64,000 bases of DNA from Bacteroidota bacterium. GTDB lineage: Bacteria; Bacteroidota; Bacteroidia; B-17B0; Aurantibacillaceae. The stretch covers positions 1 through 64,000 of the forward strand of contig JAJONO010000032.1 of NCBI GenBank assembly GCA_021323535.1. Reading direction: 5' to 3'. Below, in pieces: positions 26,086-47,274 of this stretch (position 1 is its first letter; each line of letters begins with the position of its first letter). Position numbers and translations under genes: made by a program. The notes beneath the pieces are model-generated. The model ran no database searches, had not been told where the DNA came from, and saw nothing but the letters and a program-made list of their open reading frames with translations.

Positions 26086-26718
26086 ATGAAAACAGTATCT
26101 TTGAGCGGTTCGCTTAGAGCGAACGTAGGGAAAACAGATGCTAATGCTTTAAGAGCAAAAGGTCAGGTTCCATGTGTAATTTATGGTACAGGTGAGCAGA
26201 TTCACTTCAGCGCAGATGAGCGTCACTTTAAAAACATCATCTTCACTCCTGAAACTAACTTAGTAGAAGTTGAATTAGACGGTAAAAAATACAAAACCGT
26301 TTTACAGGAAGCACAATACCACAAGATCAACGACAAATTAATTCACGCTGACTTCCTTCAGGTAACTGAAGATAAGCCAATCTCTGTTAGCTTACCGGTT
26401 AAAACTATCGGTCAGGCGCAAGGTGTAAAAGACGGCGGACGTTTAGTTATAAAAATGCGTAAGGTTCGTGTTCGTGGTTTAGTTTCTAAATTACCAGCAA
26501 GCATCGATCTTAACATCGAAAAATTAGCGATCGGCAAATCTATTGCTGCCGGCGACATTAACATCGACGGAATTACAGTGTTACATCCTGCAAATATTTC
26601 TGTAGTGAGCGTACAAACTCAGCGTGCTGCTGTTGTTGAAGAAGCAACTCCTGCTGCTACAACTGCAACTCCTGCTGCTACAACTGCCGCTCCTGCTAAA
26701 ACAGACGCTAAGAAATAG
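26086..26718 (+). CDS. rplY: Ribosomal protein L25/Ctc
   Basis: 210 residues from ATG at 26086 (KTVSLSGSLRANVGKTDANA); the open frame upstream adds nine residues that do not match the family. The N-terminal L25 domain (1-95) binds 5S rRNA; the second beta domain (about 100-185) is the TL5/Ctc extension (VSLPVKTIGQAQGVKDGGRL). The tail is a low-complexity Ala/Thr/Pro segment (TPAATTATPAATTAAPAK). It follows prs by 72 nt. The pth gene that often comes next is absent here. Confidence 0.96.
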   Translation: MKTVSLSGSLRANVGKTDANALRAKGQVPCVIYGTGEQIHFSADERHFKNIIFTPETNLVEVELDGKKYKTVLQEAQYHKINDKLIHADFLQVTEDKPISVSLPVKTIGQAQGVKDGGRLVIKMRKVRVRGLVSKLPASIDLNIEKLAIGKSIAAGDINIDGITVLHPANISVVSVQTQRAAVVEEATPAATTATPAATTAAPAKTDAKK

Positions 26719-35491: not shown

Positions 35492-35728
35492 TTACTCGGC
35501 AAGTACAATAACGTTGTTTTTCTGAACTTCAACAACACCGCCTTTAATAGCAAATTCAATTTTGTTGTTGTTGTCTTCGATCAGCTCCACTTTTCCTTCT
35601 TTAAGGGTGGCGATCATAGCAGCGTGGTTATTTAAAATACCAAAGCTGCCTTCGCTTCCCGGGAAGATGGCCGATTTAACCGATCCTTCGAAAAGTTTTT
35701 TATCCGGAGTTATTATTTCTAATTTCAT
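35492..35728 (-). CDS. atpC: F0F1 ATP synthase epsilon subunit
   Basis: 78 residues. It is the short form containing only the N-terminal beta-sandwich (KLEIITPDKKLFEGSVKSAIFPG, then GSFGILNNHAAMIATLKEGKVEL), without the C-terminal helical hairpin that inhibits the enzyme in E. coli. Short epsilon subunits are usual in Bacteroidota. It follows atpD on the minus strand, with a 75-bp gap filled by a heptad repeat hairpin. It is part of the central stalk and couples rotation to the F0 ring. Confidence 0.95.
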   Translation of the reverse strand: MKLEIITPDKKLFEGSVKSAIFPGSEGSFGILNNHAAMIATLKEGKVELIEDNNNKIEFAIKGGVVEVQKNNVIVLAE

Positions 35729-35729
35729 T

Positions 35730-35803
35730 AGAGTCTATAGTTTATGGTATATAGTTTATAGTCAGGCGTCGATACTATCAACTATTGACTATTAACCATT
35801 GAC
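35730..35803. repeat. Heptad GTT repeat forming a hairpin, between atpD and atpC
   Basis: Five units AGAGTCT ATAGTTT ATGGTAT (35730-35750), ATAGTTT ATAGTCA (to 35764), a GGCGTCG spacer, then the complementary units ATACTAT CAACTAT (35772-35785), TGACTAT TAACCAT and TGAC. The two halves are in heptad register, so they can fold into an imperfect 30-bp hairpin. It fills the entire gap between two cotranscribed genes. Confidence 0.85.
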
Positions 35804-44435: not shown

Positions 44436-45385
44436 TTATTTCTCATCTTTCGCGATCTGTACTTTATATCCCAGAATAGCTCTTCCGTTAATGAAAACAA
44501 TAATTCCGTACTCACCCGCATGATTTAGTTTTTGTCTGATGATATAAGTATCTTCTTGTTTTTTTATAACAACAGGTCTGTAAACTATTCCCAAACCATC
44601 CGCTTCAATATTAATGCTGTCGATTTTCGTTTGAGTTTTCAGTTCAAATGATAAAGTATCTTTCAGTTTGGCTTTTATTAATCCTTTTTCAGGTAAAGGT
44701 TGACTCATGTTAAACCTGAAGTGTGCCGGATAAAGAAAGGGCCATTGCTTGAATTTTGATTTGGAAATGAGAGTGTCTGAAAGTTGCCATATTGATTTTT
44801 CAGGGAAATGGGTATAAATGAAATTTTGCGGCACCATTAAAAAATAAGTATCGCTGAAACGCTTGTTCATTTTTTTTGCCCGTTCATCGTAATACCCGGC
44901 CGACCAGGTTACATCGCATAGTTGCCACTTCCCGGAAAGAAAAATGGCGTTCCAGGCATGATCAGGTTTTTTGTATGTTTTATTAATGTCATAGAGCGAA
45001 TGCTTTGAAAAACCACTGATCTTTTCACATTTGATGCCTACGGCTTCGCACATGCCGCATAACAGGTTTGAATAACCAACACAGACAGCCTTTTTCTTTC
45101 TGAACGTTTTTTCTGCTTTCGCAGTTCTGTAAGAGATATTATATTCAATGTTTTCAGCAACCCATCTGTATATGGCCCTGAACTTTGACAAATCATCTTT
45201 CAGAACTTTGACAAATCATCTTTCAGGTCTCTCGTAAGCGCGCGGGCAAGTTCGTCATAACTTTTAAAAGTTCCCGGCGACATAGATAAAGCGATAGAAT
45301 CCACTTTAGAAAAATTTGTTTGTGATCTGGAGAAAATAAAAAAGCCCGCCGAAAATAACAGCAGGCAAAATATTTTTTTTCTCAT
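44436..45385 (-). pseudogene. Transglutaminase-like protein gene split by a 23-bp duplication
   Basis: A frame of 61 residues (45385-45200: signal peptide RKKIFCLLLFSAGFFIFSRS, then SYDELARALTRDLKDDLSKF and stop) is followed by one of 251 residues (45191-44436). The second begins SKFRAIYRWVAENIEYNISY, the transglutaminase-like start, and keeps KKAVCVGYSNLLCGMCEAVG with the catalytic cysteine, the DHAWNA histidine and CDVTW. A 23-bp tandem duplication at 45181-45226 causes the break. Removing one copy joins DDLSKF directly to RAIYRW in one frame of about 308 residues. The intact protein would be an exported cysteine peptidase-like enzyme. Real mutation or assembly error cannot be told apart here. 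Confidence 0.85.
45181..45226. repeat. Exact 23-bp tandem duplication
   Basis: AACTTTGACAAATCATCTTT followed by CAG occurs at 45181-45203 and again at 45204-45226 without any difference. 23 is not a multiple of 3, so it shifts the frame of the transglutaminase-like gene. Confidence 0.97.
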
Positions 45386-45402
45386 GATCTTATTCAGAAA
45401 AA

Positions 45403-45856
45403 TTAAACCGTCATGATTTCTTTTTCCTTCTGCTCAATGTGTTTGTCCACCTTAGTAACAGTTCCATCGGTAAGATTCTGAATTTTTGTTTCAGCATCTT
45501 GCGGTTTTCGTTAATTCTTTCCTGCGTTCTTCTGTGAGAGGCGGAACCACGATGCGGATGATAACACCATCGTTCTGAGGATTGAAACCTAAGTTGGCCA
45601 TCTGGATGGCTTTTTCGATGGGCGTCAGCATTGTTTTATCCCATGGCTGGATAATAAGAGTACGCGCATCCTGGGTGTTAACACTGGCTACACCATTCAA
45701 TGGCATTTTTGAACCGTAAGCATCTACCTGTACATTTTCAAGCATAACAGGGTTTGCTTTTCCGGCTCTTACTTTCTGAAGCTCTGCTTCAAGGTGACTA
45801 ATGGCTTTATCCATTAGAGATTTTGAATTATCTAAAACTGATTTAACGTCGCTCAT
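45403..45856 (-). pseudogene. frr: Ribosome recycling factor gene, internally deleted and frameshifted
   Basis: The intact frame (45856-45491) gives 121 residues matching RRF through LTEERRKELTK (to residue 117), then TARC and stop. In another frame the following DNA encodes DAETKIQNLTDGTVTKVDKH and IEQKEKEIMTV, ending at TAA 45403-45405, which is the normal RRF C-terminus. The joined product would be about 148 residues against about 185 in the family, so about 37 codons of the long helices are missing as well as the frame. RRF is essential for ribosome recycling, so an assembly error, a mixed population or a second copy elsewhere is likely. A heptad repeat tract fills its upstream region. 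Confidence 0.85.
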
Positions 45857-45871
45857 AATGTTGTAAAGGTA

Positions 45872-45955
45872 ATAGTTTATAGTTGATAGTCAATAGTTGT
45901 TAGTTCAAAGTTCCGGTTCAAGGTTTCTGGTTATTCGTTAATGGTTTCTTGTTCT
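45872..45955 (+). repeat. Twelve-unit heptad GTT repeat upstream of frr
   Basis: Twelve consecutive 7-mers without a break in register: ATAGTTT ATAGTTG (45872-45885), ATAGTCA ATAGTTG, TTAGTTC AAAGTTC, CGGTTCA AGGTTTC, TGGTTAT TCGTTAA, TGGTTTC TTGTTCT (to 45955). The early units share AGTT at positions 3-6; the later ones slide to GGTT at 2-5. It lies 15 bp upstream of the frr start codon. Confidence 0.9.
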
Positions 45956-47195: not shown

Positions 47196-47200
47196 TTCTT

Positions 47201-47274
47201 AGAGTTTATAGTCAATGGTTTATAGTTTATAGTGGAGCGCTAGCTGTTGAGTATAAACTATGGTCTATCGACTC
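47201..47274. repeat. Heptad GTT repeat forming a hairpin, between glmM and the cysteine desulfurase
   Basis: AGAGTTT ATAGTCA (47201-47214), ATGGTTT ATAGTTT ATAGTGG (to 47235), a 14-nt spacer, then AGTATAAACTATGG and TCTATCGACTC (47250-47274), which is the reverse complement of the same unit type. The last bases run into the glmM stop codon. Same design as the hairpin at 35730-35803. Confidence 0.82.

Follow-up and report, generated by a model that had tools for sequence, protein, structure and literature searches.

A split ribosome recycling factor gene in a Bacteroidota draft genome, probably explained by a local assembly error

The gene for ribosome recycling factor (RRF), frr, is described as essential in E. 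coli (PMC7538156), and in S. aureus RRF is likewise reported to be essential (PMC7196661). In the draft genome of a Bacteroidota bacterium (GCA_021323535.1; 5,312,254 bases in 141 contigs, 97.48% complete, 1.18% contamination), frr appears as two pieces in different frames. The question is whether this organism has lost RRF, carries another copy of the gene, or has an intact frr that the assembly misrepresents. The locus was analyzed within a window, the whole stretch of 64,000 nucleotides at the start of contig JAJONO010000032.1, to which all unprefixed coordinates refer.

The broken frr gene and its counterparts in relatives

The 5' part of frr lies on the minus strand at 45497-45856, with the ATG at 45856, and consists of 120 codons homologous to RRF. 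One more codon is followed by a stop, giving an open reading frame at 45491-45856 of 121 amino acids that ends in ELTKTARC. The 3' part, about 32 codons running from DAETKIQNLTD to EIMTV, is found in another frame of the same strand at 45403-45501 with its TAA at 45403-45405. The 164 positions of the PF01765 profile were not matched in one frame, and were covered in two frames with a gap between them. The 5' piece matched positions 1-99 (140.6 bits, E 5.5e-41), above the curated cut-off of 29.7 bits, and the 3' piece (45406-45510, minus strand) matched positions 135-164 (25.9 bits, E 1e-5), by itself below that cut-off. By these E values, the homology of the two pieces to RRF is beyond chance.

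Measured from its ATG through the TAA at which it should end, the gene is 454 bp long, while a length of 561 bp with the stop is implied by the 186 residues found in 30 of 33 compared relatives. The loss is 107 bp, or 35 codons and 2 bases, corresponding to about residues 121-155. The junction was placed at 45497-45502 on the minus strand, the exact breakpoint being ambiguous by a few bases. The original prediction of an internal deletion and frameshift at 45403-45856, with the normal C-terminus following in another frame, holds in both its coordinates and its description. Its finer points needed adjustment: homology had been taken to run to ELTK (residue 117) with a stop four residues on, and its true limit is residue 120 (TAR), and the missing segment had been put at about 37 codons. 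The encoded sequence resembles RRF over its first 120 residues and the final 32 or so, whereas the 33 relatives have 184-187 residues, counted from the position aligned with the frr start of this genome. The closest of the compared relatives is 87.6% identical over residues 1-121.

Two partly overlapping sets of genomes, each including this one, were searched for frr; every species was represented by a single genome. An RRF match was obtained in 57 genomes of the first set of 60, and the gene was full length and in one frame in 56 of the 59 others; the three without a match, G004, G022 and G032, are rated 93, 86 and 60% complete. The second set comprised 148 genomes of the class, requested at a completeness of at least 95%, of which 146 had a PF01765 match. 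Of the 147 that remain when this genome is set aside, 145 have a full-length frr, covering nearly the whole profile (from 1-4 to 163-164) in one open frame, and there was no match in G069 and G151. A split frr was seen in this genome alone within the class set.

The lack of an RRF match in G151 and G069, both of the class, and in G004, of the same genus, stands beside completeness ratings of 100, 97 and 93%. A relative's whole RRF protein, compared with these three genomes at E <= 10 in a search run without a positive control, also gave nothing. The gene most likely falls into assembly gaps in all three, although G151 has only about 40 contigs. Extra weak RRF matches occurred beside full-length frr in G147 and G155. 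The one in G155 (contig C3, 213850-214068, minus strand) scored 23.6 bits, below the cut-off, and has two internal stops, while the full-length gene is on another contig; it is possibly an RRF pseudogene.

Search for another frr copy and for decay

An intact second copy had been offered as one of three ways out in the original prediction. A search of all 141 contigs with PF01765 at E <= 0.001 returned the two broken pieces and nothing more. When the threshold was relaxed to E <= 10, two additional weak matches appeared below the cut-off, with E values of 0.09 (contig C120) and 0.21 (contig C28); they are contained in open frames 561 and 375 codons long and were taken as chance. A relative's RRF protein that spans the missing part recovered only the two known pieces from the assembly at E <= 10. 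Neither the profile nor the protein search supports a second intact frr in this assembly, and the proposal was rejected for an assembly of 97.48% completeness that holds no further copy and no stray fragment of the missing part.

The two pieces were compared with those 12 of the 33 relatives that stand closest to this genome. Values of pN were 0.098-0.172 for the N-terminal part and 0.084-0.188 for the C-terminal part, with pS between 0.56 and 0.99. Among the relatives themselves, the mean pN and pS of 66 pairs were 0.11 and 0.76 in the N-terminal part and 0.13 and 0.75 in the C-terminal part. Both pieces are under ordinary purifying selection, as among relatives; pN is far below pS in each, which argues against decay. 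An old pseudogene was rejected on these values and because the pieces contain no further stop or frameshift.

A second lesion near frr and the rarity of such lesions

Downstream of frr on the same strand is a transglutaminase-like gene (44436-45385) that is also split over two frames, with a 5' piece at 45200-45385 and a 3' piece at 44436-45191. The 3' piece matched positions 17-107 of the 108 in PF01841, and since the match starts at position 17, the beginning of the domain should lie in the other frame. The frame break stems from a 23-bp sequence duplicated exactly in tandem (45180-45225), whose two copies, 45180-45202 and 45203-45225, are identical. From the start of the second copy to the frr junction the distance is 296 bp. 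No later decay was seen in either lesion. An orthologue lacking the duplication was sought, and the sampled loci of other genomes contained no match to the transglutaminase pieces; matches were present in 12 of 39 other genomes of the genus and are distant, the best having 39% identity. A terminator-like hairpin of 8 pairs (6 of them G-C), followed by a T run, was noticed at 45344-45366 on the minus strand, a short way into the transglutaminase-like reading frame from its 5' end. It may be the frr terminator, or the reading frame may start further down; shuffled regions contained 1.7 such sites on average in the same scan, and this one may be a chance occurrence.

The frequency of comparable lesions was assessed in a sample of the same genome that consisted of the window and 37 further stretches (743,892 bases, about 14%). 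Exact tandem duplications with periods of 12-400 bp were recorded, except those whose unit has a shorter period within it. Seven were found, and the period was divisible by three in every case except the 23-bp duplication. Five of the six others lie inside open frames of at least 226 codons, and a 21-bp repeat of this divisible type occurs at 26644-26687 of the window within a 226-codon open frame. The 23-bp unit was not found elsewhere in the sample beyond its two copies.

Frame breaks were sought by comparing 1,623 open frames of at least 150 codons, drawn from loci of other genomes totaling 1.5 Mb, with the sample. Matches at E < 1e-15 covered 177,032 of its bases (87,016 in an earlier, smaller run), and frr, revealed by 55 query frames, was the sole gene found to be split. 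This coverage amounts to 24% of the sample, and frr and its neighbors are over-represented in it because many query loci had been fetched by frr. The transglutaminase lesion was missed although it is part of the sample, which indicates that this homology-based frame-split test overlooks some real breaks. A generally poor assembly with many frameshifts is unsupported, a single split having been found in the covered bases within the limited sensitivity of the test. Frame switches were also sought by a coding-potential scan, which was set aside: it flagged neither lesion and listed 65 adjacent same-strand segment pairs, of which 61 have a possible start codon no more than 30 bases away, an arrangement that ordinary operons also show.

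Under uniform placement, the chance that one lesion falls within 296 bp of the other is about 8e-4, a figure calculated post hoc. Because the lesions are so close together and rare in the sample, a common cause is probable, and the frr and transglutaminase lesions are probably two results of it.

Assembly error weighed against real loss

A local assembly error at this place is, in our judgment, very probable. Of the three options raised by the original prediction it is the best supported, in view of a second lesion 296 bp from the first and of how rarely such breaks occur in the sample. The essential role of RRF, the full-length frr of relatives and the purifying selection on both frr pieces likewise favor an error over a real loss, and frr is most likely one ordinary intact gene at this position in the organism. 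The closeness and rarity of the lesions also suggest that one assembly event lies behind both. Between the lesions lie about 299 bp (45203-45501), which could represent a short contig misjoined at both ends. One end would have been joined without merging a 23-bp overlap, leaving the duplication, and the other would have been joined across a gap that was closed up, producing the 107-bp loss from frr. The tandem duplication at 45180-45225 is the kind of duplicated overlap expected from the first join, and may mark it.

Local errors in metagenome drafts, including joins at which overlapping ends remain duplicated, have been described (PMC7111523), and the present locus resembles those accounts in its broken coding sequences and in a tandem duplication that may be an overlap left at a join. 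That paper defines such errors by a lack of read support. The duplicate-overlap type described there has Ns at the join, whereas none are present here. No Ns or other non-ACGT letters occur anywhere in the sampled sequence of this genome, which is one reason why the assembly error is something we infer. Nor was a further unmerged overlap seen in the 743,892 bases, so there is no sign that the assembler made this error habitually. The limited sensitivity of the frame-split test, with about a quarter of the sample covered, lowers our confidence slightly. Two other origins for the junctions found no support. No word of the junction region longer than 15 bases recurs in the rest of the sample, which lends no support to a junction built from a repeat. 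A foreign insert between the lesions is not supported either, as the C-terminal frr piece is as near to one relative as the N-terminal piece is (84.4% and 84.3%); the base composition between the lesions is in line with the surroundings.

If the assembled allele is real, it might be confined to part of a mixed population, in which other cells carry an intact frr that was left unassembled or unbinned. Both lesions look recent, with no decay and with identical 23-bp copies, and an intact allele may fall outside a bin of 141 contigs with 1.18% contamination. Against this, the assembly contains no other allele and no fragment of the missing part, and survival without RRF would still be required of the cells whose frr is broken. 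We regard such a mixture as improbable, though it could itself be the source of an assembly error. A genuine and very recent loss of RRF in the organism as a whole is very unlikely. It would require a single complex mutation that combined a duplication and a deletion about 300 bases apart, with HflX and EF-G left to split the ribosomal subunits. The genome does encode HflX (420.7 bits) and two EF-G-family proteins above the cut-off, HflX has been reported to complement RRF deficiency in S. aureus (PMC7196661), and a review describes HflX as an alternative recycling factor that splits ribosomes, at a rate roughly 5-fold below that of EF-G, RRF and IF3 (PMC9067457). However, each of the 14 control genomes likewise has HflX above the cut-off, so its presence is permissive and is no sign that RRF has been replaced. 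Moreover, neither frr piece has decayed, and frr is full length in all 145 other genomes of the class that have a match.

We consider it scarcely credible that frr is functional in its present form, with frameshifting at the junction producing a shortened RRF. In favor of this, the C-terminal part shows conservation in its own frame; about 35 residues would be absent even with such a frameshift. All 33 compared relatives have 184-187 residues, three solved RRF chains align through the missing part, and a loss of 107 bp is unlike the layout of a programmed frameshift.

Damage to frr in a bacterium has a precedent in Candidatus Carsonella ruddii, where the gene is listed as degraded (PMC2175510), and transfer of a frr gene to the cicada host has been reported (PMC6581868). 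Candidatus Carsonella ruddii, unlike the organism studied here, is a symbiont, and its frr is described as carrying mutations in ribosome-interacting residues (PMC2175510); here the deletion is clean, the genome measures 5.3 Mb, and both remaining pieces are under normal selection. Were the loss real, this would be a bacterium with a genome of normal size that lacks an essential translation factor. On present evidence, the broken frr is not a biological novelty. As an artefact it serves as a warning that a genome rated 97.48% complete may hold a local error mimicking the loss of an essential gene, and a second lesion nearby is a useful sign of such an error.

AT-rich repeats with a 7-bp period, of the TAATAGT and TTATAGT types, were also observed beside genes at 45870-45912, 35728-35762 and 47199-47233 of the window. 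Short stretches similar to them occur on contigs C1, C25, C38 and C96.
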